A program made the position numbers and the translations under genes. Of a DNA stretch of 64,000 bases, positions 36,843 through 63,959 are shown one piece after another. The stretch comes from Lepraria neglecta (Eukaryota; Ascomycota; Lecanoromycetes; Lecanorales; Stereocaulaceae): assembly GCA_033220425.1 (NCBI GenBank), contig CM065649.1, positions 5,137,526 through 5,201,525 of the forward strand. Reading direction: 5' to 3'. Below the pieces are notes generated by a model. That model did not search any database. It was not told the DNA's origin and saw nothing but the letters and a program-made list of their open reading frames with translations. Numbering within the stretch: position 1 is the first letter of the stretch; every line of letters begins with the position of its first letter.

Positions 36843-36939
36843 AAGCCCTCTAAAGTCTTGGGCAATTGGACTCTGCCCCCGCTCCTTTTCTCCCGAATCC
36901 GACTCAGGGGCTCGGTCGGGGGGAAATCCGACTCAGGGT

Positions 36940-37330: not shown

Positions 37331-37433
37331 GTTCGCGTCCGCGTCCGCGTGTCTAACAGTCTATCCGGCTATAGATAATAACTGTTTAATAAAGAGAGAT
37401 ACTGTTAGGGGAGAGTCTGTCTATCTAATAGAG

Positions 37434-40400
37434 ATGATGCCTGACGGAGTTATCGAATGTTTTGAATACTATACCCCGTTTCGCGTGGTGATTTGTACGC
37501 GCTGTCAAGGCGGTGTTCCTAACCCCGGGCTTAAGGCCCATCTGAAGCGCTTCCATCCGGACCTTCTAGCAAGCCGCCGTCAGGCCGTCTTATAGTATTT
37601 TACTAACGAGGTCTCTCTGGCGCTGAGCGAGGACCTGCTATCCCTGCTCCCGCGATCCCTGGACGCGCCTATCCCCTATATTCCCGTCTTCAAGGACGGA
37701 CTACGATGTCACCGGTGCGATTCGACCACCCCGCGTCCCTATATAGGCCGCTCCGAGGAGAATCTCAGAAGGCACTGCGGGAGCGCTCATAACTATACCA
37801 AGTACCGAGGACGGGGGCGGCCAAGCGTCGCTAGCGTCAGGAACCGAGGATCAGAATCAGATCCATGGCACCGCGATATTCGCTGCCAACGGCTATTCAC
37901 CGCGGGTACCGGCAGCTTCTTCCTAGAAATCATTGAACCTGCTACAACTGCAGCAGCGGCGGCTGCGGCTGCCCACCCTCCAGCTCAGAACCCGCCGGGT
38001 ATCCCCGCGGAGATCGAGATAGGTACCGAGACTGTATACACAGCGAGGATCCAGCAGCGCGTACGAACCCAGCTACAGACGATCGCGACGGCGCAGCAGC
38101 AGCAGGATCATCTAGGTATCCTCGCCCCGGCCGATCGGACCGAGGCGAATCCCTGGCTCCGGATCACGCGGTGGGCCGAATTCCTCAAGGGCTACGAGCT
38201 ACGGAAGATCCTGCCTCTGGTCGACCCCCTCGACCGACCGAGACGATCCTGCGCGAATTCAGCCAGAGCCTGGATCGGATTATCGAGGAAGCGCGCGCCT
38301 CGGTCCTGACGGAACGGATCAATATCTTCGATCAGACCATGATCAATATGTTTACCGACTACGCAACCAAGGCGGGACGACCGCTAACCACGCAGCTCCG
38401 AGAAGGGACGTACCGGGAGTACAAGAACGTATGGAAGCGCCTGCTGTGCTTCGTATATCGGTGCTTCTTATACCGGACCGCGGATCCTGAAGTCTGGACC
38501 GCTATTGCCGCCGTCGAGGATCTTGATACTGATAGTATATCGAGAGACGAGGCTAATCCGACCTTTCCGTTTATCCTGACGCGGAATTAGTATACCGGAC
38601 TACGGCGGAGTATCCGCGAGGCCTATACGCTGGTCGGGCTTCAGGGCCGAGAGGGCGTTACCGTAGAAGCGTTGAATGAGCGCCGTTAGAAGCTGGACCG
38701 AGTCCTCGCGCGGCTATGTATGGCGCTGCTGGAGCATATCCTGCCCCAGAGTATCTACCAGTCTACCGTCGTCGGGTTCCTAGCGATCCTAGGGATCGAC
38801 GAGAAGCAGGTACGGAGCTCCTCCCTCTCTTCCCTTCTCCTACTAACTAATCTCTACCGTTCCCCCTAACCCCCCGGCCCTGCTGATCCAAGCTCGATAG
38901 GGTCGTTTCTACGACGCCTGCAATTACACCCCAACCCTATCCGCCTTTGTCAAAATCACCTAGCTGCTTACTATTCAGGCGAGCGTCTACGCCGAGGAGG
39001 CCGGTAAGGTGGAGCACGCCGCTGATATGCTTCGCGCCTACCGCGCCCGCTGCCTGCTTCGGGACGGCCATACGCCGTTTGGCTGGATTCTCACCTTGCG
39101 CTCCCAGGGTAGACGGATTCGGAACAACACGACGAGTGCCGGCTATATCACGTGGGCGGATGATCGGTCTAGTCTCACCTTCAAAGATATCACCCTGGAT
39201 ATTAAAGCATTTCGGGGCTTTCTACATCAGCAAACGGAGGCCCTCTGCGCCGAGCTAAGCGAGCTCTGCCTACCGCAGCCGCACGAGCCGAGTATCCCAC
39301 GGTTCGATCTCGGTAAGCTGAGGGATAACCCCGCTAACGCTTAAACCGGCTGGTCCTTCCTGCAGGAGCCGCAGAACGATCTGGCTCGGTGGCAGGAGTG
39401 GCTTATTAATCGCGTGCTGGACCAGCGTATACTACGCGAGCAGTTCTTCCAGTTAGAGCGGCGCGTCGCCGGTCAGCCACCGAAGGATCCTTAATGGCAG
39501 GTAGCCCGCGTCCGACAGTATCTGGAGCTCCTTCGACGGTTTCTAACGCGGCTATCGATGCTAATCTTTATCCTCGGCGGGCAGCCCGCGAGGGGGACCG
39601 AGCTATTCAGTCTGCGATACCGCAACACCTTCTACGGCGGTTATCGAAACATCTATATCGAGCAGGGTCTGCTAGGATTTGTCACCCTGTACTATAAAGG
39701 CTACTCCATCGGCGGATCCCTGAAGATTATCTATCGATATTTACCCCCGGCGCTTAGCCAGGTCGTCGTTCAATACCTCGTCTTGGTTCTACCCTTCTCC
39801 CAGCAGCTCAGCCGTCTTGTCTATGATCAGCCTGAGGATTCGGCGTTCCTCTGGGCCAGGGCGGAGACGACGTGGGACCCGAGCCAGCTGTCCCACTTCC
39901 TGCGGCAGGAATCCGCGCGGGAGCTCCAGGTGCCGCTGGCGATCTCGTCCTGGCGCCATACCGCTATCGCTATCTCGCGCGAGTTCATCCCCAAGGGGAC
40001 GTATTTCGATCGCGAGGCCGACAGCGAGACGAGTCAAACCCTTGACCGGCAGGCTTGCCATTCGAATAACACGGCCGGTACGATATACGGGCGTCTGGTC
40101 CAGGACGGTGATGGGCAGATCAGGGAGTTTCGCGAGCGATATCGCCGGGTTAGCCTACTATGGCATACGCTCTAGCTGCAGGAGGCGCCCTCGGAGCCCT
40201 CGGAGCCCCCGGTGGAGGAGCAGCCAGCCGAGGAGCCCGCTCAACCATTACAGGAGGACCGAGGTGAAGATTCAGTAACTATTGGATCGGTAGGACGATC
40301 GGATAGCGTACCGCCTGGAGATGATTCAAATCTCTCGGCGGAGGGTCCTATAAGTACCGCCGACGGTAGGTCCTACTTCCCAGGTATAGACGGGTCTGAA

Positions 40401-40667
40401 CGTCTCGAGACAAGTCCTGAGCCCCGGGGTAGAAAACGACCCGCTCCGACGGATTCTCTCCCCCAGTTACGAGAGCCTGCGATAGAGCCAGCCGATCTCC
40501 CTCCGCCAACCGCCATATCAGCGCCGGCGACGCCGTCTCTACCGATAGACTTACAACAGCAGCAGCTCCTCCAGTAGCATTTACACCAGCAGTCACTCCT
40601 ATTTCAGCAGCATCAGCAACAGCAGCTACAGCTCCTTATTCAAATCATGCAGCATAGGAAGAGCTAG
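37434..40667 (+). pseudogene. Gene A: OrsD-type zinc fingers plus tyrosine-recombinase-like domain
   Basis: The frame from the ATG pair at 37434/37437 encodes two C2H2-like fingers of OrsD (DUF3505) type: VVICTRCQGGVPNPGLKAHL with RFH (37480-37550) and LRCHRCDS...NLRRHCGSAH (37700-37790). A Q/A-rich stretch, a long alpha-helical region and an intron (about 38809-38898) follow. The recombinase-like part has Arg in QPARGTELFSLRYRNT (39591), YYKGY (39696), SSWRHTAIAISREF (39946) and a Tyr in HSNNTAGTIYGRL (40084), placed like the Arg, Lys, Arg-His and Tyr of phage integrases. A Pro/Gln-rich tail ends at 40667. About eight TAG/TAA stops and one frame change near 38225 (C-run) inactivate it. It lacks the helicase that gene B carries. 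Confidence 0.7.
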
Positions 40668-40744: not shown

Positions 40745-41375
40745 GCCGCCGCTATCTCGCCAAGGAGTGGTCCGTTTTTCAATCCGAGGATAGTATTAGA
40801 ACGGCCTCGATTAGCCGGTGCCAGAGGTAGCCGGCAAACCACTGCCGGGGCCACCCTTTACCTAGGACATCCAGGCAAAGCTCCTCAGCGGATTCTACAC
40901 TGGCTATCGACTTAGATCCCTCTCTATCTCGCCAAGGAGTGGTCCGTTTTTTAATCCGAGGACGAAATCAGAATGGCCTCGATTAGACGGTGCCAGGGGT
41001 AGCCGGTAAACCATTGCCGGGTCTACCCTTTACCTATAATATTAAGGTAAAGGTCCTCAGCGGATTCTACACTGGCTATCGACTTAGATCCCTCTCTATC
41101 TCGCCAAGGAGTGGTCCGTTTTCCAATCCGAGGACGGAATCAGAATCGCCTTAATTAGACAGTGCCAGAGGTGGCCGGTAAACCACTGCCGGGGCGACCC
41201 TTTATCTAGGACATACAGGTAAAGGTCCTCAGCGGATTCTGCACTGGCTATCGACTTAGATCCCTCTCTATCTCGCCAAGGAGTCGTCTGTTTTTTAATC
41301 TAAGGATAGAATTAGAATAGCCTCGAATAGATAGTACTAGAGGTAGCTACTAAACTATTGCCGAGGTTACCCTAT
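40745..41375 (+). repeat. 172-bp tandem array after gene A, about 3.6 units
   Basis: The marker TATCTCGCCAAGGAGTGGTCC recurs at 40753, 40925, 41097 and 41269, exactly 172 bp apart. Each unit also carries AATCCGAGGA, GCCGG.AAACCA.TGCCGGG (a small stem-forming element) and GTCCTCAGCGGATTC. The last unit is decayed. The same unit follows genes B and C. Confidence 0.92.
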
Positions 41376-41735
41376 CCCCCATCGGTAATGCTAGTGTTGG
41401 TTCACTGGAATTATTTCCTAGGGCTGGATTTTTACCGCGGCGCGCGGATTTTCCAGCACGGGGGGTTCCCTGGAATTGATTCCGACCCCTTCACTGGAAT
41501 TCCCTTTTGTGGTCGGATCCGGCGCAAACTTCAGGGCAGGCCAGGACGGTATCGAACCTGCCCGGTCGCTGAGTTAGAGAAGATTTGGCCTTTAGGGTAT
41601 GGTTAAGTAGTACGTGCAAAGTATCGAGTCGAGGTAGAAGGATCGGCCGCTTAGGCGCGCGCCGCCGCCCCCCTCATACCGGGCCGGATCCCGCTTGATT
41701 CATCCAACATTCATCTAACGTCTATCGAATATCGA
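41376..41735 (+). promoter_or_regulatory. Presumed promoter region of gene B
   Basis: About 360 bp of normal GC separates the array from gene B. It contains repeated CTGGAATT motifs (near 41406, 41469 and 41493), two of them as TTCACTGGAATT, that could be protein-binding sites. Function is inferred only from position. Confidence 0.4.
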
Positions 41736-44700
41736 TCGATACTATAGAGCAATCATTAAGCACCGAAGCGATCCAGGTCGCGCACCAATATATCGATTAG
41801 ATCCCCGAGTATCGATTGGTCGTCTGCAAGTTATGCTAATACGCGGTATGGCCCCAGCAAATCAAGTCGCATTTCCAGGGGGCGCAACACGATATCCCCA
41901 GAGAGAACATCGCCGCTATTACCCGGGTCGTCAACATGTGGACGTATATGATTCAATATCCCATCGAGTTAGAAGTTCCCGAATCTATTACGCAGCCGGT
42001 AGGGCAGATTGAATTATTTCGAGACGGGTTACGATGCGAAGTGGACCGGCCTAATTACCATTATGTCTGTCGAAAAGATCGGGCTATTAAGGAGTATCTC
42101 AGTTAGAAATATAGTCGATCTAGGTATGGTAAACGAGGTAGACCCAGCCAGAGTCAACGGACGTGCCGGGCCGCCGCTGAACCCCAGTGGATGACTGTTA
42201 CGTGCCAGCGGTTTTTCCCTAGCCGGGAAGGGTCCCGGTATTTCGAGGTGACCGCGCCCAGTCCGACCCCTACGCCCGCTAACCCGCGTATAACCCCGGT
42301 GTGGGAACAGGCGGAGAAGGCCCTAGAGCAGCGTAAAGAGGCTATCGAGTAGAAGGAACAGAAGATTATTACTGAGGGCCAGGCTAACGAGGTTAACCTC
42401 TGGCTGGAACGGGCCGGATAGCATGTATACCTGGCCGGGTTAGAGCGCGAGCGGCTGTTAGCATCGGTGGACGGCCCCGACGCGAGGGCGGAGCCTGTGT
42501 TGACGGCCGTGTGGCAAGCTATGGATGAAATGATCAAGTATTGCCAGTATACCGCGACCACGCGGGTAAGCCTCTTCGTCCGGTTCGAAGCCGTACGCAC
42601 CGAGAAGTATTAGACCCGGTATCAGCCGCTGCAAGGGTATATGAATACGAAATTAGTACAGGAGTATGGGCGGCCGTGGAAGCAGATGGTGATGTTCATC
42701 AGGCGTACGTACCGCCAGCGGGGGTGGAAGGTGCCTAGGTATAGACTAAACGGCAGGCAACGGCGGGCGTGGAAGGATCTACTGGCCAAAGCGCGGGTAT
42801 TACTGCGAGAAGAAGATAACGGAGATAGGCCGGCCGGCCAGGAGGAGGAGGAGGAGGAGGTCGATACCGATCCGGAGGGCTCCTAGTCTGCCGGGGACGC
42901 CGGGACGGAGGAGGCCCGGTCCGACCCCGAGGATCATCCCGTGTTGGCTACGCTGCCCAAGGCGTGTTTGGAATTCTGCATGTCCTTGCTGGCCGAGTAG
43001 ATCACGCGGAAGGAATACGACAGCGTAATAGTCTGCGCCTTAGCCGTGTTAGGGGTCAAGCAAGATGGCTGGCTCGGGCCGGATCGATACCCGCCGATTT
43101 TATCGGCCATTATCAAGATCAGCCGGTTTATAGTCATCCAAGATGCGTTCGAAACGGCCGGGCCTATGGAATCCTGCTCGAGCCGTAGCCGTAGCGGTAG
43201 TAGTAGCGGCGGTAGTAGTAGTAGTAGTAGTAGCAGCGGCGGTAGAGATGACGGTGATCGGCCGTCCCGCTTAAACGACAATGGTACTGAGTTCGAAAAG
43301 AATTACTTAGGGTTAGTCAAAGAAGCTATGGATCGCTTTATGATCCGGGGTAGCCACAGCCCGATATAGTGGATGTTGGATCTGCGGACCTATGGGCTCA
43401 ACATCTATTACGCCACCACCGCCGAGGGGACGATCGATTGGGTCGGGGATCAGGTCGTGTACAAGAATATCCAATTCACTATGGCCGAACTGCGGGGTAT
43501 AATCCACCGATTGGCCACCGAGACGAGGCGTATCTTAGTCCAGGAGCTGCTGTTTCTCGCCGATCCCGGCCGGCTCCCCCGGATCCCATAGGCGTCGTTG
43601 CGGGATAACCCTGTCAACGGGGAGCGGGGGTAGAATTTTGTGCGGGACGAGCGCAATATATGGCCGGTAGACGGCCGAGTATGGTTAAGGGATCGCGTCG
43701 GGAAAGACGACGCCCTACAGCGAAGATTCATCGAAGACGGCCAGGTCTTGAAGTGGAAGAAGGCGGGGATCCGCGCGTATATGGATCAGGTGGTAGCATA
43801 TCGAGAGCGGTCCTTACCGTTACTGCATATAACCGGCGGATACGCCGCCCGGGCCCCCGAGATATTAAGTATCCGGTATAAGAATAGTATTAAAGGCGAA
43901 TACCGCAACGTATTCATCGAAGATGGAATGGTGGTATTAGTAACCCGATATCATAAAGGGTATTACGCGCACGGGAACGAGAAGGTCATCCACCGCTATT
44001 TGCCCCGACCGGTTAGGGAATTATTCGTATATTACGAGTAGCTGGTCCGCCCCTTCCAGGAGGTCATCGAGGCTGAGGGGTAGGATTAATATACTACGTC
44101 GCCCTTCCTATAGCCGGCGGACGCTGACGGGAAGGGATAGACCGCCAGTCGGATAACGAAATATATACAGAACGCCAGCGAGAGCGGGATAGGGGTGAAG
44201 GTCGGGGTCCAGGTATGGCGGGATTTATCTATTGGAATCAGCCGGAAGTTCTTGCGGAGCGAGTATATCTTCCGGCGGGACGAGGATAACGAAGATGGAG
44301 ATTTCTACGAAGACCCGGCCAGTGCGATCTAGGACGAACAGGCGGGCCATACGTCCCATGTGGCGGGGATGGTATACGCGCGGGGGATTACGGAGTTAAG
44401 TAGGGTCGTAGCTAGCAGGCGGCAGCGGTTTCGCGCGGCGAGCATGGAGTGGCACCAGTTTTTAGGGTTCAGTTAGGATGATACAGCGGCGGCGGCGGCG
44501 GCGGCGCCGGGCGGTAGGCAAAAGCGGCCAGCGCCCTTTGGTAACGAAGCTGAGGACGCCTCGTTCCAGCGGTGGAAGCGGATCAGAGGGACAGATATCC
44601 ATACCGAACTACGGCGTATGATGGGGTCTACCGCCACGTTTCGAGGGGTATAGGAAGCCGCTATCGGGGCTATCATAAAGGGGGAGAGTCCTGTGGTTAT

Positions 44701-46462
44701 GGTGATGGGAACGGGTAGGGGGAAAAGTTTGGCGTTCATGTTACCGGCCCGGTGCAGCGCAGGGGGCACTAGTATCGTGGTAGTACCGTTAATCGCATTA
44801 CGGCAAGATCTGAAAGATCGATGCCGCCGGTTAGGGATCGAATATATCGAATGGAACGGCCACCGGCCCCCCCGCCAGGCCCGAATCGTGTTAGTGACGC
44901 CGGAAGCGGCGATGGGGGACGGGTTTAGCACGTATATAAATCAACTACGGGCGACGCAGCAGTTGGATCGCATCGTGATTGACGAATGCCATGTGGTATT
45001 GAATAACCGGTGGGATTTCCGGCGGAAATTGCAGCGGATGGGGGAGCTGAATCATACGGAGGCGCAGATAGTGATGTTGACCGCCACATTGCCCCCCGGT
45101 ACAGAAGCCCAATTATGGGACCGGATAGGATGGAAAGCCGAGACGGTTCGTATATTCCGGGCAGGTACGGTTCGACAGAATATCAGATATTAAACGGTAC
45201 GGATCCCGGCAGCGGACAAGAAGACCGGAGGGGATGTACGGGTTATCCAGTAGGTATTTGGTCGATATCGGCAGGGAAAGATAGTAGTATATTACACTTC
45301 GGTACAGCAAACGCAGGATCTAGCGAACCGACTAGGGTGCGAGGCATATTACTATAACGCCGGTAACAAGGCCGAGAAGCTGGCGCGGTTTAAAGATGGA
45401 AATCGGGTGATTATAGCCACCAGTGCGTTCGGGATGGGGATCGATATCGAGAACATCCGGGTAGTAGTTCACGTGGATCGGCCGCGGACCTTATTAGATT
45501 ACGCATAGGAAAGCGGACAGGCGGGTCGAGACGGGCTGAGTAGCGATACCGTTATTATCGATGTTAATAACGGGCTAGAAGAGGGGGGAGGGGATTCGCC
45601 AGAGGAAAGACTGGTCCAGCGATTCATTAAGGGAGACGGGTACCGGCGGCAGGTACTAGATGAGTATTTGGATAGACGAATAGATCATATAGAATGCGCA
45701 GACGGCGAGGAGAGATACGATCGATACCAGGCGATAGAAGAGGATGGTCATATACAGCGGCGGCGGCGGCGGAGCAGTATAGCAGACGGGGTACTGGACC
45801 CGGGGTCCGGGCCGGGGCTGGCGGAGGAGGCAGATCGGGCGGGGACAGAGATAGGGGTCTTTCGGCAGCAGCGACAGATACGGGCCCGGATTAGGCAAGA
45901 ATAGCGCGAGCGAGTACAGGCGGAAAGGGCAGACGTTATAGCGTTAAAAGGATATTTAAATACCGTCCGAGGGCAATGTCCGTTTTGTCGATGGCTACAG
46001 ATCGAGCACGAGCCCTATCCGTTGTATCGATGCCGTCTCGGGGATTCTAAGCGGAGCCGGGAGCTATATACGGCGACGAAGAAGAAGATTCGAGATATAC
46101 GGGCGATAGAGCGCTTCGGTAGATATATAGAGTGCTTTATACCGTAAGAGTGGTATAACTAATAGCGACAGAAGGAGGAGAAGGCAGAGGATGGGAACGA
46201 TAGTGGAGGGGGGTACGAGAGGGTGCCCGGACGAAAATGCCAGTATTAAGACGTGGTACTAGGGGGGTTCGCGGTGGCCTTAACGCAAGATCCGGTATTT
46301 AGCAGTAGGTAGGTTAGACGATTAACGAAGGCGGGTCCTGATTAGTTAATAGGAGATAATCTCCTCCGGTACCTAGGGAGACGAATCGAGTGGGGAGGGT
46401 TAGAGACTAACCGGTTACTGCGGGAATACTGGGAGGCGGTAAAGTACGACAGGGAGGAGTAG
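41736..46462 (+). pseudogene. Gene B: OrsD fingers + tyrosine-recombinase-like domain + RecQ-type helicase
   Basis: A single frame of about 1,575 codons, broken by roughly 30 stops, all TAG or TAA. The start may be a former ATG, now ATA, near 41738. In order: an OrsD-type finger (YRLVVCKLC.YAVWPQQIKS with H, 41810-41890); a helical region with a poly-Ser stretch (43195-43250); recombinase-like motifs ARAPEILSIRYKNS (43850), YHKGYY (43951), VWRDLSIGISRKFLR (44214) and HTSHVAGMVYARG (44347-44385, putative Tyr); then helicase motifs GTGRGKSLAF (44707), DECHVV (44981), MLTATLPP (45073), VIIATSAFGMGID (45410) and ESGQAGRDG (45510). The end has a CxxC zinc pattern (CPFC, 45978). RecQ enzymes unwind DNA 3' to 5', and telomere-linked RecQ genes are known in fungi. 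Box II reads Arg-Asp. Confidence 0.8.
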
Positions 46463-46489: not shown

Positions 46490-47010
46490 CCTTTCCGCCG
46501 CTACCGCTGTTATCTCGCTAAGGAGTCGTCCGTTGTTTAATCCGAGGATAGAATTAAAATAGCCTTAATCAGCCGGTGCTAGAGGTGGCCGGTAAACCAC
46601 TGCCGGGGCTACCCTTTATCTAGGATATCCAGGTAAAGGTCCTCAGCGGATTCTATACTGGCTATTAACTTAGATCCCTCTCTATCTCGCCAAGGAGTGG
46701 TCCGTTTTTCAATCCGAGGACAAAATCAGAATCGCCTTAATTAGACAGTGCCAGAGGTGGCCGGTAAACCACTGCCGGGGCGACCCTTTATCTAGGATAT
46801 CCAGGTAAAGGCCCTCAGCGGATTCTATACTGGCTATTAACTTAGATCCCTCTCTATCTCGCCAAGGAGTAGTCCGTTTTTTAATCCGAGGACGGAATTA
46901 GAATAGCCTTAATTAGACGGTGCCAGAGGTGGCCGGCAAACTATTGCCGGGGTTACCCTTTATCTAGGATATTAAGGCAAAGGTTCAAAGCAGAATTAGC
47001 TAGCTATTAA
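46490..47010 (+). repeat. 172-bp tandem array after gene B, about 2.9 units
   Basis: Units with the TATCTCGCCAAGGAGT marker start near 46508, 46680 and 46852. The first is altered (CTCGCTAAGGAGTCG). The array ends in a diverged unit (to about 47110) that becomes the upstream region of D1. The sequence preceding it, from GTAGTCTATAC through TTTATCGATTCCCGCC, matches that preceding the array after gene A. Confidence 0.9.
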
Positions 47011-47237
47011 CTTCAATCCTACTTGATTTTTTAAGGAGCTATTTAGTTTTTATCCTAAAAATTAGAAAAGCCGGAGTTAGGTAGTACTACAGGATTTTTG
47101 TATAATATATACCCGCCCCGCGGTTACCTCGATATAAGCTTCTTTTTAAATCTATTCTCTTCTTCTTAATACTCTCCGGTCTATACGAAACCCTTTAAGC
47201 CCTTTCTATATTAGTAAATCAGTTTCTTTAACCCTCT

Positions 47238-48225
47238 ATAGCTCTACCGCTACCTACTACCTAGACCGTGGCGACTGGCGCTGATATAGTCGGCACCTGG
47301 TTGAGCGACCTGAGATTAAGCGGCGCCCCTCAGTATAGCCCTACTCCAGGCCTAGCTGGACCGCCGGCTATCTGGCCGCAGGTAGCTTTATACACTAGCG
47401 AGGCTCAGAGGCAGAGGTAAGATAGATATTGCTTGCTTACATCCTTACTTGCTTGCTAGCTTGCCTATATACTTGCTTACTTACCTACTTGCCTGCTTGC
47501 TTGCCTACTTGCTTACCTGCTTACTTACTTACCTATATACTTACCTATTTACTTGCTTACCTGCTTACTTACCTGCTTACTTCCCTACTTACTTACTTAC
47601 CTACTTACTTACCTCCTTACTTACTTTCTTCCTTCCCCCTCCCTATTTTCTAAGGGCTAATCGTTTATTGACTCTATCTAGCTACCTGAATTCGGTCGTT
47701 GATATATCGGAACGGGCGAGCTATAAGGCTTGTAGCATATTGAATCCTACGGCGCGCGCTATAACCGCCCATAGCGCGGCGCTGGTATGTAGCAACCTGA
47801 ATAGCGCCAGCCAAGACAACGCCGGCCTCGCGCAGTGGTACGCAGTAGGGATAGCCCGGGCTGGGCAGCAGTATTATGTCTACAGCAGCACGTTCGATCC
47901 GGCGGATTACCTAGCCTCGTCTCCCCCCCCGCGGCTCTCCAGTCAGCCTAGCTATATTAATACCGAGTATATTATCCGGTTGATACGGACCCCCCAATCG
48001 ACCACCTATCCGGCTATCAGAGGGGTGCAAGGCCATCCGGTCCGGGGCCGTAGACTGACTGTGGCCGAGATATAGACTACGGGGAGCGGGAATACGAGGC
48101 AGCAATATATAGGAGAGGGTGCCCGGTTTATTTACAAGGTAGCTAGTGGGCGTGCCGGTATCTCGGCTATAGGGTCGATAATACCTAATCTAGCAGGATA
48201 TAATTGGGTACGGGCGACTTGGTAA
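47238..48225 (+). pseudogene. Gene D1: unrecognised small spliced gene, RIP-damaged copy
   Basis: Homologous to D2 at 59544. Exon 1 (47238-47416) and exon 2 (47682-48225) have the same lengths as in D2, but the start codon is ATA instead of ATG, and TGG-to-TAG changes create stops in exon 1 (near 47265) and exon 2 (near 48073). The 265-bp intron is a CTTA/CTTG/CCTA tetranucleotide repeat. The three key differences are all explained by G-to-A change in TpG, so D1 is a RIP-inactivated duplicate. Confidence 0.8.
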
Positions 48226-51200
48226 TAATTAGTATAGAAATAGTAGATAATTAAAGAATAAAAGAATTATAACTTATTACTAGAATAATAGATAAGAAAA
48301 GGAGGAAATGGTTAAATTTTTTATAAAGAATAATAGACGATTAGAATTAGATATTAGATATTAGATATTAGATATTAGAAATAGGAATAGATAGTCGATA
48401 GTAGATATTAGAAATTAGAAATTAGAAATAGATAGTAGATAGTAGATATTAGAAATTAGAAATTAGATAGTAGATAGTAGATAGTAGATAATAGATTAGA
48501 GTTAGAGTTATAAGATAGGGTTTAAATTTAATAAAAGAATAATATTAGAAGGTAAATTATTAAGAATTATAAGAAAAAGAAAAATAAGAAGAAGATATAA
48601 ATAATAAAGAAGATACTAAGAAGGAATATATTTAAAATTAAACTAAAGAATTAAGAGATTAGAATTATAATAAAATATTAATAAGAATTAAGAAAGATTT
48701 AAGCTAAATTTAAATATAATTAGAGTTAAAAGCTTAGGATTAGGGCTTAGGATTAGGGTTTAGAAAGATAAAAGAGTTAGAATTAGAATTTTAGAGTTAA
48801 AAATTAATAAAGAGGAGGTTAAGTTAAAGAAGAATTATAAAAATAAAAGGGATTAAATAGAGAGGAGCTAAAAAGGGAGTTAGAGGTTATAGAAAAGATT
48901 TAAAAATAATAGATATAATTAAGAAAATAGATATAAAAGATTTATATATTTTAAATTTAGAGTTTAAATTATATAAATTAAAAGATAAGTAATTAATTAA
49001 TAAATAAACTAAAATAAAATATATATATAATAGAAGTTTTAGATTTTAAGAAATTAATTAATTTAGAGGTATTAGGGGTTAAGAGTTTATTAGAAAAGAA
49101 GAATTATAAAAGACTAAGTATAAAGAAAGTAAAGGTATAAATATAAGATTTTAAATAATAAATTAAATAGAATAGATTATAGATTTAATTAATTATTAGG
49201 GAAATTATTAAAAGAATATAAAAGAGGAGATAAAGGAGGTAAATTTAGAAAAGATATAATTTAAATAAGATTATTTAGAGGATATAAAAAAGAGGGTTAT
49301 AAGATTAATTAGTAAGTAAAAGATTTAATTTAAGTAAGATTATTTTAAGTTAAAAAAGGGATTATAATATTAATAAAGAATTAAGAGATTAAATTTAAAT
49401 AATAATAAGTTAATTTAGAGTTAAGAGGTTATATTAATAAGTTTTTAAATAGTAGTTTATAATAAGTAATTTATTTATATATTAAATAATAATAATTTAA
49501 TTTAGGGTTAAAAGGTTATATTAATAAGGAATTAAATAGTAGTTTATACTTAGAGTTATTTATTTAAAGAATATAAATAGTTAGAATAAAAAAGAAAAAT
49601 TTCGGGTTAATATTAAAAGAGAGTTAGGGTTAAGTTATTTTATAAATAATTAGATTAAATATAGTTAGTAATAAATAATTTTAGAATATTAGATAAGTTA
49701 GTAAATTAAGGAATTAAAATAGATTAATTAGAAGAGAGAGAATAGATTTTAGTTTTAATAGAAGTAGAAATAGAAATAAAAGTAGAATAAAAAATTAAAA
49801 TAGAAGTAGAAATAAAAAGAAAGAGAGTAGATAGAAATAGAAATAGAGTAAATAGGTAGAAATAGAAATAAAGGAGGAATAGATAGAAATAGAAAGAAAG
49901 GAGGAATAGATAGAAATAGAAAGAAAGAAGAAGTAGAAAGAAATAGAAATAGAGAGGAAATAGAGATAGAATTAAAAAGAATAGAAAAATTAAAGTAGAA
50001 ATAAGATTTAGAGAGGAAGAAATTTTATTTAAATAATAATTATAAGTTTAATATATTTTTTAAAGAATAGATAGATAGATATATATAGAATTAGAGAGAG
50101 AAGAATTAAAGATAATAAGGATTAAATAGAAAAGAAAATAAAAAGAAATAAGAATAGATAATTAGAATTTAAAAAGGATTAGAAAGAGGAAAAAAGAAGA
50201 TATTTAATAAAAGAAGAGAAGGTATTAAATAGAGATAGAAATTAATAGAAAGTAAGATTAAAGGGTAAAAGAATAGAAAGGATTTAGAATTATATAGAGA
50301 AGAATTAAATTAAAGAGAAAGAAAGATAAGTAGAAAAGGGATTAATTAATTATAAAATTAAATTTATTAGGGGTTAAGAATTTTTAAATAAGGTAAAGTA
50401 GATTTAGGGATTATAGAGATTTTTAGAGAGGTAGGGTATTTATAGAGAAGGATTTTAGGGATTTTAGGGTTAGAAGTATTAATAGAGAAGGATTTTAGGG
50501 TTTAGAGGGACAAGATTAGGGTTATAGATAAGGGCCCGGGGTTTAGAGGTAGGGATTATATTTATAAGGAAGGATAAAGGGGGTTTTAGAGGTAAGGATT
50601 ATATTTATAAGGAAGGATAAGAGGGTTTTAGAGGTAGGGATTATATTTATAAGGAAGAATAAGGGGGTTTTAGAGAGCGAAGAGGCAGATTAAATATAGT
50701 TAGTAATAAAGATTTTTAGAATATTAGATAAATTAGTAAAGTTAAGAATTCGATATTAATTTAAGGAGAGAGATTAGGTTTTAGGGTTATAAGAAGTAGA
50801 AGTAGAGAATAAAAGTTAAAATAGAAATAGAGAGGAAGTAGATAGAAATTAAGAGGGAATAAATAGAAATAGAAATAGAAGAAGAGTAGATATAGAATTA
50901 AAGAGAAGAGAAAAGAAAGAGTAAAAAGGAAATTTAGGGTTAAGAATTAAGATAGAGATAGAAAAAAGAATTAGAAAAAGAATTAATAAAAGTTAGAATT
51001 TAAGGGTAAAATAAATCAGAATAATTAAAGGTTAAAGAAGATTTAAGGGAGTAGAAGTAGAAGTATTTTTAGTTTTATAAGATAGAAGATTTATAGGGGT
51101 AGGAAATATTTTAAGGAGTAGGAGTATTTTAGGAGGTAGGGTTATAAGATAGAAGATTTATAGAGGTAGGAAATATTCCGGGGAGTAGAAGTATTTTTAG

Positions 51201-52205
51201 GGTTAAAGAGTTTTTAGGGGAGGGGGTTTAAGGGGCGAGGATCGTGTTTATAGGGTTAGGGTTACGGGTATTTAGAGGGCCGGGATTAAGGGATAGGGTA
51301 TAGGTTATAGGCGTTTAGGGGGCCAGGACGGTATTTATAGGGTAAGGGTTACGAGTTTTAGAGGGGCGAGGATCGTGTTTATAGGGTTAGAGTTAGGGGT
51401 ATTTAGGGGCGAGGGTCGTATTTATAGGATAAGGGTTATAGGTATTTAGAGGGCCGGGATTATATTTATAGGGTAAGTATTACGAGTATTTAGAGGGCCG
51501 AGATTATATTTACAGGGTAAGGGTTACGGGTATTTAGGGGCGAGGATCATATTTATAGGGTAAGTATTATAAGTATTTAGAGGGCCGAGATTATATTTAC
51601 AGGGTAAGGGTTACGGGTATTTAGGGGCGAGGATCGTATTTATAGGGTAAGGGTTACGGGTATTTAGAGGGCCGGGATTATATTTATAGGGTAAGGATTA
51701 CGGGTATTTAGAGGACCAATATTATATTTATAGGGTAAGGGTTACGGGTGTTTAGAGGCGAGGATCGTATTTATAGGGTAAGGGTTACGGGTATTTAGAG
51801 GGCCGGGATTATATTTATAGGGTAAGGGTTACGGGTATTTAGAGGAGTTAAACGGTAGAAGTGTTTTTAGAGTAATAAGATATAATATTTAGAGGAGTAG
51901 GAGTATTTTTAGGGTTATATATTAGAATATTAGTAGGGGTAGTAAATAGTTAAGCGGAGTAGGAGGGTTATAATAGAAGATTTATAGGGGTAGGAAACGG
52001 TTCGGGGGAGTTAGGAGGTTTTTAGGGGTAAAGAATTTGGAGAGAGGGGGAGGGGAGTAGTTTTAGGGGTAAAGAATTTGGAGGGAGGGGGAGTGGGATT
52101 GTTTTTAGGGTTAAAGAATTTGGAGGGAGAGGGAGTGGGGGTGTTTTTAGGGTTAAAGAATTTGGAGGGAGAGGGAGTGGGGGTGTTTTTAGGGTTAAAG
52201 AATTT
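48226..52205. repeat. C-depleted purine-biased subtelomeric block, copy 1
   Basis: Nearly 4 kb whose + strand is A/G/T with almost no C. From 49604 to 50510 I find no C at all. It opens with GATAGTAGATATTAG-type short repeats (48340-48500). Scattered TTAGGG-like words grow dense toward the right: a 43-44 bp minisatellite with TTATAGGGTAAGGGTTACGG (about 51220-51850) and a 42-bp unit with TTTAGGGTTAAAGAATTTGG repeated four times (52020-52200). There is no coding capacity. It is paralogous to 60517-63780 and looks like an old telomere-adjacent region now internal. Confidence 0.85.
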
Positions 52206-52854: not shown

Positions 52855-54348
52855 ATGGGTCAACCTCCAACTACAGCCGCTGAGAAGAGGATAAAGAACG
52901 CCGCCCGGTAATATCGGTGGCGCCAGCGACAAAAGCAGACCTGGTAGCAGGAACGAGCAACTCGCCTGCAGCAGGACGCGCTTATCAAGGAACTGCAGCA
53001 AGCACTCCGCGGTCGCCCACCTCCCCCTTCTCCTCCTTCTTCTTCTTCCCCTCCGACTACACCGTAGCAAGTATCGGCTCCGTTACCCCGGCCGTCGGTT
53101 CCGATAGAGAGCCAGGGCCCCCCGAGCGAACTCTATAGGGACGAGAACCCGCCACGAACCCCTCCCGCGAACCGGTGGTCCATTCAATTACCCTGTCCCT
53201 ACCCTCCCGAGAGCTCGACGAAGAAGAAGGACGACAGCTACTACTTAACGGTATATATCTCGTATGGGTCCCCGACTCCCAATAGGGAGAAGATCCCTGA
53301 CGGGCTGGGTTCGAGGGGATCGGAATCCGGTATCAGGCCAACTCCACCACCCTAGATAAGCCGTTACGCGACCTTTGGCCCGATTTCCCCAGCCATCTAA
53401 CTTTCACCCTGAGCCGAAAGAGGTAAGACGTTACTTAACAGGATTATGCTCAAGGCGATAACGTACTTCTCGGGCGCTGATTGGCCTATTATGGTCCAGA
53501 GTAGGCAAATCGCCCACCCTATCAGTTTCCCCGCCTTTTTTACAGGTACTAGACGATACCCCAGCTTTTTCTTCTTCCCCCCTAACCGCGCGACGCATAT
53601 TAATGATTTTTTATCTTCTAGGACAGATTTTCTTACCAGCCGTAATTCCTTCACTATAGGCCGTAAAGTAAAGCCCCAAGAGGAACGACGAGCTACCAGA
53701 CGAGCGACGCAACGCAACTACAACAGGGACAATACTACCAGACGTACCGGCCCCTCCAATATCACCGCCGAACCAGCTCCCTTTAACCAAGGACCGGAAT
53801 CCCCTCCTGGTCGGCCTCGCCATCCATCACCCCCGAATAGCTCCCTTCTTCGGCAGAATCCTACCGCTAGCGAGCCTGCCGCCCTCTTTGATCCTACCGC
53901 AGAGGATGATAATCACCCCCGTATCAATCGAGTCACCCGCAAACGGCCTGCTGCTTCCTCTCCTAGATCTAGTCACTCTCGACCTAAAGCTCCTTCGACC
54001 TCCAGCACCGCGAACAACGTTCCACTATCTACAGGGACCGATACCCGCTCTCAGTCCATAGATCTGTCCAGTAGAAGTAACAGCCTGAATCGGATCATCG
54101 AGCAGGACATATCCCATACACCAAATATCAGCCAGGGTCCAGGAGTCAATAATAATAAGAATACCCTATATCCTATCCCCCAACTCCAACCGCGTTCCTC
54201 CACAAGCGCCTCGTTACCAGTGGCCTCTTTAACGTCGAGGGTTACCGCAGTCCATATCCCTCTTTCGACGTCAACGTTAACTTCAGTTAATATCCCCTCC
54301 CATTCGACGTTTTCAAGACCAACGGTAGTAACCTACACCTTACTATTG

Positions 54349-54381
<33 letters not shown>

Positions 54382-57300
54382 TACGCGCCTGACCACGATG
54401 ATCCTCTCGAGTCTCGCTCGGCCGTTTCCGGGCCATCCGATCTAGATAGGTACGATGAGTCCGCGGTATCGCTGGAGGATGATCTCTCAGAACTCAGCCT
54501 GTCCGACGAAGCTCCTGATCCCATAGCTGCCGCGCAGGACTGCCTGGACCGCAGCTGGGCGCCTCTCTGCACGTGCAGTAAGACTGCCACCTCGACTGCA
54601 TCCTGAATGCTTGATTGACTGACTGACTGACTGACTGATCACGTATCTATAGGGAACGACTGCATCGGCAGCAACGGAGCACGCTCGTTAGCCGAATGCA
54701 CCGACTATCTCAACGAACATCTCCCTAGGACCCCTTTTCCTCTGCAATCCGGTACGCATCTACGTCGCCGAGGTCAGTATAACGATTTCCGAGCGGTAGA
54801 CTGGCAGGAACTCCTGGGAGGCCGCAGTAATGGCGATGTCCCGGAACAGGCTCTCAGCATCGCCAGGTCCGCAGAGGCCTTCGAACAGGCCGAGCAGAGG
54901 ACCGACCCTTGGGTCAGGCGCAGTTACGACGTGGATAGCTTTATGGCCAGGGTCACTACACTGGCGGTCCACCGGAAGGGCTTCAGACTTGCCTACCGCC
55001 CGCCTTACCTTAGGACTATCACCCAAGACCCTCACGTCACGTTCCGGTCGAGACGGATCCACAAGACTAAACACCTCCGCCTCGGGTATGGCGTTAGCAG
55101 CGCGGGCTTTAACTACGAATGTTATGTCTTCTTCCCTCGGATGACTCGCGCGAAGAAACAGCAGAAGAACCATAGCTACCATCTTAGTAGCAAATCGCAG
55201 CAAATCTAGATCGACGATATCATCCTCCCTGCGCTCCGATCGACCTGTGATGCCCAAGTCCGTGCTCGTCATCCCCGTAGCTTCGAAGACGCTAACTACA
55301 AGGCCCACGTGAGGCAGGAAGTTCATAATCTGCTACCTGGCCAAGCTATAGACGTGTCTTACCCGATCCCCTCCCAAGATCTGGATGCCTTTTGGAGAGA
55401 GGTGTGCCGTAAAGCCGACGATCGCCCTCTGTTCAAGAACCCCTTTCTGATCGTCCAGGGCCACGACCTCAAGATCTATACGTCTCGCCCGTCTCCCGCC
55501 CAGGCTCGCGAAGATTTCCTTACCCACCTCGAAGACTGTTTCGATTTCCGCGAGGAATACTTCCCACCCGGAGACTGTTAGTTGGACTTTGGGGTGGAAG
55601 ATACCCCGGTCGGTGATACCTCGCAGGCCATTACCCTTCTGCGCAAACCCAGTTGCCTGGAGCATTGGGCCGAAGCCTTTCACGACCCCTCCCGACGTAC
55701 TACTGGCACCAAGGAGGCGAAATACCCTTGGTTCTGGACCCGGGATGCCGGCTCCATGTCTGTCGCGGTCCTGGCCAATAACTACCTCCACCGAAAGTGC
55801 GGGATCGCATATCCCAAAGCATACAATCTCATCAAACATCTGTTCGATACGCCCCTGAAGAAACACAGGCCTTTCCAGAACCCGCATTTCGAAGCTCTAG
55901 GGTTCAGCCAGTCGAATCTCGACCGCTGGTACGAGGCCAATCACAAAGGGTCATCATCCGCACGTCGGCGGAAACACGAGCAGCTCGTCCGTCAATACAA
56001 CACGACCAAAATCCGGCTTCAGGCGGCCCTGAAGTCCGCCGAAGACACCACTTATCGTCCGCCACGGCCCCAGCGCCGCAACCAAGGAGTAGCACCATCA
56101 CCACCACCTGACCTCAGCGATTACGCACTCGATGACCCTCCCACGTCGGATAACGAGACCTGCTCACCACACGGATCCGACAACGAAGCGCCCGCTCCCG
56201 CGCCCAGGCGCGTGCCCCCGGTCGCTCCGGAGCATAAAGCGGCCAACTTCGGGGCCCGACAGGAATGCCGAATAGACTTGACGCGGTTTCGAAATATGAA
56301 TTTCGATACAGTCGACGGCGACGGCGACGGCGACGGATCCGCCCTAAGCCCGATGTTAACTAGAGTTAACGATCACCCCCGCCCTCACCGTCGACGTGTA
56401 CCGCATTTCCCATATTGGATCCTGCCTACTACCGAGGTTCTCCAGTTTATCGCCGCGACTACCAACCGCTGGCTCCTGCACCTCGAGGTCATCATGACAC
56501 GCCTGGAGGGCGGAGTTAGGGACCTTACGCCGATGACGTGGAAGGACGAGCAAATGCATGGGGTAATGGTCATGGCCATCGTCCGTACCCTGGCGCTCAG
56601 CTTTGGAGGCGACGATCCCCGGATGTTCCCGCATCGGCCATTGTGGAGGGACGACTGGACGATGAGCCGCCTACAACACGATAACCACGAAGACGACGGG
56701 ACCCCTACGGTACGACTAGGGCTAGGATATCGTCGCTCCGTGGACACGTACGGTATGGTCTGGGTCCGGGCCGATCTCATCCGATGGTTGCCCCTACCTT
56801 ACTTCTCCCAATACGCACTCAAGAACCTTGGGCTCTCCCAAGACAATAACGCCTTTCAGAAGTCCTTCCGCAGACCCCAAATCGCCAATCTCCTGAATAA
56901 GGAACATTATTTCTACCGTCGTTGGCGTAAGCATTGTAAGACGCATATAACAGTACGGCGGGCGTACGAGCCGGTGGAACGCTGGGTGAAACGCACACTG
57001 GATCTCGCCGCGCAACTCGTCGTCAAGGAATATAATCTAGAAGTATTCGACATCCTCGCCAAGCGCTGCTACATCGCGAAAAAGGACTGGAAGGCGGCCG
57101 TTCAAAGCCGCAATACAGGACCCTGCCCCCTTCAAGACGAGTGGCCCTCAAAGGCGGAGCAGAAGGAACACTTTCTGGCGCAAATGGACGAGGACTCGCG
57201 AAACGGTTTCTGTATGCTCACGCCCGGGTTGGTGACCCGGATTACGGGGGCCAGGCCCCACATCATTCACGCGAAAGCCCCGGGCTCCAACGGCAAAGGA

Positions 57301-57966
57301 GCCGTCTTCGCTCCCTACCACAGGTCAGGACTGTGGGAGGATCGGGTCCGCGCACTCTTCGGGTTCGACGAGCCGGAGTTAGAGGGTAGGAGGCGCAAAT
57401 GGGAGCGATGCAAATTCCGTACCCTCGTCAAACAACTCTGGACCATTTTCGACCAGACCTTTGAACATATCCTGCGTCAACCCGACTGGACGTATTGTCT
57501 CGGGCGCCACGCCTCCAAACTGATGCTGATCATCCCCCAATACGACGCTGACCACCTCTCGTGCATCCAAAAGGCGAAGGACGGCAATGCCGTGGAGACA
57601 CGACAGAAAATCAACGGGACACCGATGGTCCAGCGAACCAACTGGCTGTCCTGCCGTCTCGAGGAGGAGCACCATGAGTTCGTCCATCGGGTAGACCGCG
57701 CGGTGAACGACGAACCAACGCAGAAGGCGATCAGGGACATCCTTCGAGACAGCCCCTTGCAAACCTTGACCAACACCAACAGCCGTGCGGCCAAATATCC
57801 TCGCGGCGTATTCCACAACCTGGACCTGGACGGTTTGGACGACACCTTTTATGAGGCGGAGATGCACCATATACTGGCTGAGGAAGATAGTAGGGAGGAC
57901 GCTGGAGAGGTGGAATCGGAACCCGAAGAGGGAATACGGGACGATTCGTCATCGTCAGACGAGTAG
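52855..57966 (+). pseudogene. Gene C: large unrecognised protein, lightly damaged
   Basis: The frame begins at ATG 52855 (MGQPPTTAAEKRIKNAAR) with Gln-rich basic helices, then shifts frame near 53110. A long intron (about 53422-53623) may lie before a Ser/Thr/Pro-rich region that ends in a run of Asp (54350-54380). A 75-bp intron (54578-54652) containing (GACT)n joins TC to NDCIGSN. From 54653 to 57966 one frame of about 1,100 codons has only two stops, TAG at 55207 and 55579. It includes DVSYPIPSQDLDAFWREVCR, FLIVQGHDLKIY, a LLRKPSCLEHWAEAFHDPS block, an acidic patch and an Asp/Glu-rich C-terminus. I recognise no catalytic motif. Similar blocks occur in uncharacterised fungal repeat-associated proteins. 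Both stops fit single RIP changes of CAG or TGG. Confidence 0.65.
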
Positions 57967-58175: not shown

Positions 58176-59285
58176 CCTAAGCCGGTACTAGAGGTGGCCG
58201 GCAAACCATTGCCGGGGTCACCCTTTATCTAGGATATATAGGCAAAGGTCCTCGGCGGATTTAGAACTGGCTATCGACTTAGATCCCTCTCTATCTCGCC
58301 AAGGAGTGGTCCATTTTTCAATCCGAGGACGGAATCAGAATGGCCTCGATCAGCCGGTACTAGAGGTAGCCGGCAAACCATTGCCGGGGTCACCCTTTAT
58401 CTAGGATATATAGGCAAAGGTCCTCAGCGGATGCTGCACTGGCTATCAACTTAGATCCCTCTCTATCTCGCCAAGGAGTGGTCCATTTTTCAATCCGAGG
58501 ACGGAATCAGAATGGCCTCGATCAGCCGGTACTAGAGGTAGCCGGCAAACCATTGCCGGGGTCACCCTTTATCTAGGATATCCAGGCAAAGGTCCTCAGC
58601 GGATGCTGCACTGGCTATCAACTTAGATCCCTCTCTATCTCGCCAAGGAGTGGTCCATTTTTCAATCCGAGGACGGAATCAGAATGGCCTCGATTGGACA
58701 GTGCCAGAGGTGGCCGGTAAACTACTGCCGGGGTGACCCTTTATCTAGGATATCCAGGTAAAGGTCCTCAGCGGATTCTCTACTGGCTATCGACTTAGAT
58801 CCCTCTCTATCTCGCCAAGGAGTGGTCCGTTTTTCAATCCGAGGACAAAATCAGAATCGCCTTAATTAGACGGTGCCAGAGGTAGCCGGTAAACTACTGC
58901 CGGGGCGACCCTTTATCTAGGACATCCAGGTAAAGGTCCTCAGCGGATTCTGCACTGGCTATCGACTTAGATCCCTCTCTATCTCGCCAAGGAGTGGTCC
59001 GTTTTTCAATCCGAGGACGGAATTAGAATCACCTCAATTAGACGGTGCCAGAGGTGGCCGGCAAACTACTGCCGGGGTGACCCTTTATCTAGGACATCCA
59101 GGTAAAGGTCCTCAGCGGATTCTCTACTGGCTATCAACTTAGATCCCTCTCTATCTCGCCAAGGAGTGGTCCGTTTTTCAATCCGAGGACGGAATTAGAA
59201 TCACCTCAATGAGACGGTGCCAGAGGTAGCCGGCAAACCATTGCCGGGGTCACCCTTTATCTAGGATATCAAGGCAAAGGTTCAA
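58176..59285 (+). repeat. 172-bp tandem array after gene C, about 6.4 units
   Basis: The TATCTCGCCAAGGAGTGGTCC marker occurs at 58292, 58464, 58636, 58808, 58980 and 59152, always 172 bp apart. Neighbouring units share private variants: the first ones have CCATTTTTC where later ones have CCGTTTTTC. This points to local unequal exchange. The array ends in the same diverged unit that precedes D1. Confidence 0.93.
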
Positions 59286-59543
59286 AGCAGAATCAGCTAG
59301 CTATCCACTTCAATCCTACTTGATTTATTAAGGAGCTATTTAGTTTTTATCCTGAAAATTAGAAAAGCCGGAGTTAGGTAGTACTACAGGATTTTTGTGT
59401 AACATACACCCGCCCCGCGGTTACCTCGATATAAGCTTCTTTTCAAATCTATTCTCTTCTTCTTAATACTCTCCGGTCTATACTCTTCTTACGAACCCCT
59501 TTAAGCCCTTTCTATATTAGTGAATCAGTTTCTTCAACCCTCT

Positions 59544-60516: not shown

Positions 60517-60691
60517 CGATTACTATAGAAATAGTCGATAAATAAATAATAAAAGAATTATAACTTATTACTAGAATAATAGATACGAAAAGGAGGAAAT
60601 AGTTAAACTTTTTATAAAGAATAATAGATGATTAGAATTAGAAATTAGATATTAGATATTAGATATTAGAAGTAGAAATAGATAGTAGATG

Positions 60692-60731
<40 letters not shown>

Positions 60732-60832
60732 AGTAGGAATAGATAGTAGATATTAGGAGTAGGAATAGATAGTAGATATTAGAAGTAGGAATAGATAGTA
60801 GATAGTAGATATTAGATATTAGAAGTAGGAAT

Positions 60833-60863
<31 letters not shown>

Positions 60864-61119
60864 AGTAGAAATAGATAGTAGATAGTAGATATTAGATAGT
60901 AGATATTAGATAGTAGATGTTAGAAGTAGGAATAGATAGTAGATAGTAGATATTAGAAGTGGGAATAGATAGTAGATAGTAGATATTAGAAGTAGAAATA
61001 GATAGTAGATAGTAGATATTTGTGGTAGGAATAGATAGTAGATAGTAGATAGTAGATATTAGATAGTAGATGTTAGAAGTAGAAATAGATAGTAGATAGT
61101 AGATATTAGAAGTAGGAAT

Positions 61120-61157
<38 letters not shown>

Positions 61158-63780: not shown

Positions 63781-63959
63781 AGATAGGATTTAGAATAAGA
63801 ATTTAGTAGAAAGTAGAGGTAGGAATAGAAGTAGGAGTAGAAATAGAAGTAGAAGTAGAAATAGAATTAGGAGTAGAAGTAGAAGTAGAAGTAGAAGTAG
63901 AAATAGGAATAGAATTGGGAGTAGAGCGGAAGCGGAAGCGGAAGCGGAAGCGGAAGCGG
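63781..63959. repeat. Hexamer-based telomere-associated repeats
   Basis: From about 63800 the sequence runs in six-base steps of GAAGTA/GAAATA type, then changes at 63925 to five units of AGCGGA and one AGCGGT, directly joined to the TTAGGG array. The shared six-base period with the telomere is notable. Confidence 0.85.

Follow-up and report, generated by a model that had tools for sequence, protein, structure and literature searches.

A gene fusing OrsD, tyrosine-recombinase-like and RecQ domains in a proposed chromosome-end element of Lepraria neglecta

Close to the end of contig C4 (CM065649.1 of assembly GCA_033220425.1), the ascomycete Lepraria neglecta carries a gene in which an OrsD zinc finger, a tyrosine-recombinase (YR)-like domain, and a RecQ helicase core are fused in one frame. 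We analyzed the last 64 kb of this contig (64,000 nucleotides, positions 5,137,526 to 5,201,525 of 5,201,525 bases; hereafter, the window), at the end of which TTAGGG repeats are present. We propose that the gene belongs to a chromosome-end element consisting, in order, of a 19-bp left terminus, the gene, a 172-bp tandem array, a tail, and the telomere. The reading that we tentatively prefer, and to which we give somewhat less than an even chance, is that the YR-like domain joins the terminus of such an element to a chromosome end and that RecQ aids in copying it outward.

The one-frame fusion put forward in the original prediction is real: Pfam recognizes OrsD as well as DEAD (44654-45190, E = 5e-20) and Helicase_C (45254-45505, E = 9e-10), the latter two forming a RecQ-type core, and the region between them and OrsD is conserved; Pfam gave no match for the middle piece 43634-44038. 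The motifs RAPEIL, YHKGY, WRD, and HTSHVAGMVYARG lie where they had been predicted, and their residues are nearly invariant in relatives, so they are not chance occurrences. In 250 aligned relatives (gaps and X are excluded from all column counts), the box I Arg is kept in 248 of 248 sequences, the β-hairpin Lys in 248 of 249, the Arg of the box II HxxR in 245 of 246, the box III His in 238 of 240, and the Tyr at the nucleophile position in 239 of 240. The spacing from the box III His to the Tyr is 9, as it is from H270 to Y279 in XerD. Intact homologues without the conserved Arg and Tyr had been named as one outcome that would speak against the assignment, which these counts leave standing. 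The accompanying doubt about box II, which reads WRD rather than His-x-x-Arg-His, was justified and applies family-wide: the HxxR His (R-3), a member of the tyrosine recombinase tetrad, persists in 2 of 123 sequences of the narrower family, from whose counts 4 of 131 proteins were left out because their spans were over-long. Because this His is lost, membership among the canonical YRs was rejected and the domain is termed YR-like; catalysis by it is putative. Read by eye, the consensus runs from an Arg helix through three strands with the Lys, a helix, a turn, the box II helix, and box III to the Tyr, an order of elements that fits a YR catalytic domain.

A profile-profile comparison, suggested as a check in the original prediction, was made against 76 recombinases, i.e., XerD, lambda Int, Cre, and 73 XerD relatives; lambda Int relatives from viral contigs were left out of this reference, as they are nearly identical. 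All five residues were placed in register with a score of 29.95 (P = 0.0034, single comparison); the narrower family alone gave P = 0.013, and the value of 0.0034 was obtained with the short family added. The best scores of column shuffles were 22.4 (40 runs), 27.6 (120 runs), and 28.3 (600 runs), so that none of 760 reached 29.95, and at most four catalytic columns were matched in the 720 shuffles scored for this (120 + 600). The reversed family scored 19.3, and scores of 11.3 to 16.7 were obtained with four further regions of these proteins. The statistics of the comparison are modest; in the reading that we prefer, the middle domain is a divergent YR-like domain with a putative YR fold and YR chemistry. 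Separately, DUF3435, the family of the Starship captain, has 36 matched pieces elsewhere in the genome, many of them with stops, and these were too broken to serve as a yardstick.

The window copy of the gene is decayed. All 29 in-frame stops are TAG or TAA and none is TGA; compared with eight aligned homologues, 16 of the 29 are at positions with Trp or Gln as the commonest residue and 13 at positions with another one. Stops at Trp and Gln sites are attributed to CpA to TpA change on either strand, as by repeat-induced point mutation (RIP). TpA/ApT is 1.04 in the fused gene, 0.79 to 0.80 in two flanking stretches, and 0.81 in a fused-type copy on contig C9; (CpA+TpG)/(ApC+GpT) is 0.77, 1.16 to 1.25, and 0.96, respectively. 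Both ratios are read as indices of RIP, and the window gene is probably a copy with RIP-like damage. The C9 copy (C9:79613) has an open frame of 788 aa that comprises OrsD and part of the YR-like domain (L026, C9:74601-84600), and no RecQ was found behind this frame. None of the four fused-type places in the genome is both full-length and open according to the own-genome search.

The same fusion occurs with open frames in other ascomycetes and in metagenomes. With region 545-965 of the stop-masked window protein as the query, 272 relatives were found at E <= 1e-3, and many of the best 120 listed carry OrsD, DEAD, and Helicase_C in one protein. Named proteins with all three are from Alternaria, Plenodomus, Didymella, and Polycauliona; a Teloschistes relative has no OrsD match, a Pyrenophora relative has no Helicase_C match, and the remaining listed relatives are largely metagenomic. 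A second gene of the window, which is shorter and lacks RecQ, gave 261 relatives, the best 120 of which include Aspergillus, Penicillium, Botryotinia, and Pseudogymnoascus; the Aspergillus fischeri relative is annotated as a putative telomere-associated RecQ helicase. In a midpoint-rooted tree of 239 proteins (11 of 250 were dropped), a DECH/DEAH motif follows the middle domain in 101, all on one side of the root, where 18 proteins without the motif and one undetermined protein are also found; the other side holds 118 without it and one undetermined. Parsimony gives at least 19 changes of the DECH/DEAH state, part of which may reflect truncated proteins. This picture is biased by the length limits of the searches, and the claim that the second clade never carries RecQ was dropped, since the search giving most of that clade admitted only proteins of about 323 to 1029 aa. 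One member of this fungal family, P0049, is recorded as RecQ helicase L2 from Tanacetum, a plant, and is likely a contamination.

In the L. neglecta genome, there are at least 17 places with the YR-like domain (counts from the own-genome search are lower bounds), 4 of the fused type and 13 of the short type. The 13 copies on contigs C1 to C8 all point outward; the distance to a contig end is at most 28 kb for 11 of them and 98 and 131 kb for the other 2, and the three that bear RecQ are at 20, 28, and 131 kb. The orientation script covered 16 copies, and the copy on C11 was added by hand. The predicted link with chromosome ends thus holds. A 172-bp array follows each of the 13 short copies and 2 of the 4 fused copies. 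When up to 2 mismatches are allowed, the 19-bp terminus TCTAAAGTCTTGGGCAATT occurs 22 times in 42 Mb and the reversed pattern not at all. All 21 termini on C1 to C9 (20 on C1 to C8 and one on C9) are oriented outward, and for 18 the nearest end is no more than 30 kb away; the remaining one, on C10 (172,957 bases), is mid-contig. The terminus, often after (CT)n and in other cases without it, precedes 11 of the 13 short copies; it was not found at C9:7768, and the C11 copy is cut by the contig start. It also precedes the fused copies at C8 and C4:5070506, is degenerate at the window fused copy, and was not found before the fused copy C9:79613. Inside the terminus, the units hold at least three kinds of sequence. 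Two side observations concern the left ends. At L043:1761-1820, the left end of one unit directly follows the 40 bp that remain of another, a nested join with the same terminus. In two left-end kinds (L028, L029, L034, and L037; L043:1801), inverted repeats were seen by eye immediately inward of the terminus, and the arms of one of them contain TTAGGG.

These units bear on an alternative in which the domain is YR-derived, with its site under selection, and acts to the benefit of the host or of its own copy number: it would bind or nick subtelomeric repeats and, with RecQ, promote recombination of ends as a Y'-like amplifier, with no joining of a terminus. Fungal subtelomeric RecQ has been linked to telomere maintenance and telomerase loss (PMC10532341, PMC4522978; statements on published work refer here and below to the available parts of each source), and the 172-bp arrays and tails common to different units fit exchange by homologous recombination. 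Such exchange does not predict that one 19-bp terminus is joined to at least 13 different flanks, nor does it predict joins into unlike sequence, and we regard this alternative as unlikely, though of appreciable weight.

The joins were examined by aligning eight filled sites with a paralogous empty site. In seven of the eight, T follows the join in the closest empty site as it does in the terminus, with 1 to 4 nt shared; the base before the join is C in 5 of these 7 and A in 2, and the join at the eighth site, S1, is ambiguous owing to (CT)n. At S7, where there are three paralogues, the closest and one other follow the T rule and the third does not. Two units of different families are joined at the same GGTTACCC of the 172-bp array, one at window position 41372, where the degenerate left end of the fused unit begins at 41373, and the other on C1 (L032); some joins lie in unlike sequence. 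At six sites, the sequence past the element was searched for the far side of the empty site, with a match required to span at least 100 bp at 85% identity or, in the case of S6, 60 bp at 80%. The far side was recovered at none of them within the sequence available; one match, the fused gene inside L027, is not a far side. At S6 and S8, in the window, the far side is absent up to the telomere repeats. Only the window reaches telomere repeats; therefore, S6 and S8 are complete tests, and the far side of the four other sites could lie beyond the assembly.

In the mechanism that we tentatively favor, the OrsD finger and the YR-like domain would bind the terminus, and the conserved Tyr would cut beside it and link it to the end of a chromosome, frequently at C|T. 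RecQ would then unwind a donor, and the strand would be copied outward to the donor telomere; the outcome would be a one-sided addition by which the older tip is replaced, possibly as a rule. The suggestion in the original prediction of an element that moves between or maintains chromosome ends is partly supported: the anatomy (terminus, outward orientation, and lost far sides) fits spreading, a role of the protein in movement is putative, the canonical His is gone, and the window copy is broken.

Several results weigh against this reading. HMMER found no match for the middle domain in Pfam, PHROGs, or the PDB, and the R-3 position in 247 sequences of the larger set is mostly Q, A, L, S, P, or T. 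Against the same reference profile, lambda Int scores 105.5 and Cre 88.4, far above the 29.95 of the YR-like domain. The small contigs C9 and C11 hold four YR copies, of which one points outward; the other 3 are the exceptions among the 17 copies. No 172-bp array lies downstream of the fused copies C9:79613 (within 4.6 kb) and C4:5070506 (within 3.9 kb), and none of the other contig-end stretches examined has three or more TTAGGG in a row. Finally, end addition by a reverse transcriptase, or break repair, could also account for the one-sided joins and for the (CT)n next to several termini.

The lack of an HMMER match would be expected if the YR resemblance were convergent or accidental and the domain were another helical DNA-binding fold, as would a profile E of only 0.0034 on a single comparison; the RecQ control, in which a low-scoring alignment agreed by chance at three catalytic letters, points the same way. 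We consider this improbable: the five near-invariant residues agree in order, identity, and His-Tyr spacing and are in register, and none of 720 shuffles was as good. The last result leads to a scheme in which a reverse transcriptase encoded at some other locus adds the units to ends, by end addition or target priming, with the OrsD-YR-RecQ protein in the role of a passenger or helper. The variable (CT)n at several left ends would correspond to a 3' (AG)n tail on the other strand, the scheme agrees with joins that share 1 to 4 nt and lack a far side, and telomeric retrotransposons are known near helicase genes in Fusarium (PMC12857005). We nonetheless judge this scheme quite unlikely, as no reverse transcriptase was recognized in the few window open reading frames (ORFs) scanned, the terminus occurs without (CT)n too, and the invariant Arg-Lys-Arg-His-Tyr set would be left unexplained.

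According to a broader and rather doubtful proposal, the telomere-linked RecQ genes of fungi would encode the transposases of a novel chromosome-end transposon class, in which a YR-like enzyme with its fused helicase joins a fixed terminus to the end of a chromosome and the remainder is copied outward. If true, the element would both spread and rebuild telomere-proximal DNA, and a joining enzyme would be added to the known ways of capping or rebuilding chromosome ends. The conserved recombinase-like site and the defined terminus provide a direct hypothesis and concrete substrates for the spread of telomere-linked helicases, a process for which we recognized no mechanism in the available parts of the literature cited below.

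The features of the window are collected in Table 1. The reading frame of the short gene shifts near 38.3 and 38.9 kb, owing to introns or frameshifts, and no RecQ lies ahead of the array start at 40752. Two long ORFs (397 and 794 aa) at 53413-57966, which have no Pfam match, represent a third kind of gene upstream of the 172-bp array of the outermost unit. In 48332-52205 and 60621-63925, the + strand is C-poor toward the telomere and locally almost C-free, with a GC skew of up to ~0.95 per kb, and some of these repeats resemble degenerate telomere sequence. An Rfam search of the window gave no match.

Table 1. Coordinates of features in the 64,000-nucleotide window
Feature	Positions	Strand	Basis or remark
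Left terminus TCTAAAGTCTTGGGCAATT, first unit	36849..36867	+	Start common to copies at other contig ends
Short gene: OrsD region and YR-like domain, without RecQ	37401..40574	+	ORFs, Pfam, own-genome search
YR-like domain of short gene (QPARGTE, YYKGY, WRHTAIAISR, QACHSNNTAGTIYGR)	39495..40172	+	
172-bp tandem array, first unit	40752..41373	+	Broken off after GGTTACCC (41365-41372)
Degenerate left end, fused unit	41373..41421	+	BLAST to L043 left end from 41384; first bases matched by eye
Fused gene, OrsD - YR-like - RecQ	41702..46459	+	1586 codons, 29 in-frame stops
OrsD (PF12013) zinc-finger domain of fused gene	41840..42103	+	Pfam on stop-free pieces, E 3.8e-9
YR-like domain of fused gene	43322..44491	+	tblastn span, query the window's own protein
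Catalytic-type codons of fused gene	Arg 43850-43852; Lys 43955-43957; box II Arg 44219-44221	+	Protein numbering and alignments
Box III His and nucleophile-position Tyr codons of fused gene	His 44348-44350; Tyr 44375-44377	+	Protein numbering and alignments
RecQ helicase core (DEAD and Helicase_C)	44654..45901	+	Pfam, own-genome search
172-bp array, fused unit	46511..47019	+	
Distal tail and C-poor purine-rich repeats, fused unit	47020..52205	+	
172-bp array, outermost unit, then tail of same kind	58180..59316	+	
Terminal TTAGGG repeats, contig end	63960..64000	+	

Among known systems, Starship captains are fungal YR enzymes that drive large elements; membership was rejected, as no DUF3435 (PF11917) match was found in the proteins scanned. 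Helitron membership, which calls for a Rep/HUH nuclease domain together with a Pif1-like helicase, was likewise rejected, since the Pfam scans gave no Helitron family and the helicase matches DEAD and Helicase_C; the code DHX given to elements of Colletotrichum higginsianum presumably denotes the Helitron type. The Y' elements of yeast spread by homologous recombination, and we know of no YR-like domain in them. Like the units described here, they are telomere-localized helicase repeats (PMC4522978). Cryptons resemble these units as eukaryotic mobile elements with a YR gene, and the Crypton-derived WOC is found at telomeres (PMC3212892). They carry the R-H-R-Y tetrad, and the word helicase is absent from the available text of that paper (PMC3212892); they are flanked by a 4-bp repeat (PMC7175516). 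Membership, which calls for this tetrad and no further enzyme domain, was rejected, since the present family has lost the tetrad His and includes a fused RecQ core.

Fungal telomere-linked helicases (TLH) have been in print since 1998, and several papers describe a helicase at chromosome ends, partly with OrsD (PMC10532341, PMC11457142, PMC4522978, PMC5576322, PMC12857005). No other domain is reported for subtelomeric RecQ proteins in the available text of PMC7473861. Among the literature matches listed, we recognized no description of a recombinase domain in telomere-linked RecQ proteins, and none was found that joins a YR domain, RecQ, fungi, and a mobile element. The C. higginsianum elements DHX_G198, DTX-chim_G199, and DHX-chim_G203 are single full-length copies that lie between the telomere and unique sequence in one orientation to the telomere, and they share with our units the helicase and DUF3505 (OrsD) domains; the available text mentions no tyrosine recombinase, and the integrase and transposase domains there belong to inserted elements (PMC5576322). 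In Ustilago UTASa and UTASb, Magnaporthe TLH, Metarhizium recQ, and Fusarium tlh, the RecQ core is found at subtelomeres in many copies near the ends, as it is here, and OrsD has been reported with Ustilago UTASb and the Metarhizium gene (PMC10532341, PMC11457142). Compared with these named TLH proteins by their descriptions, the family described here is set apart by a conserved YR-like domain between OrsD and RecQ.

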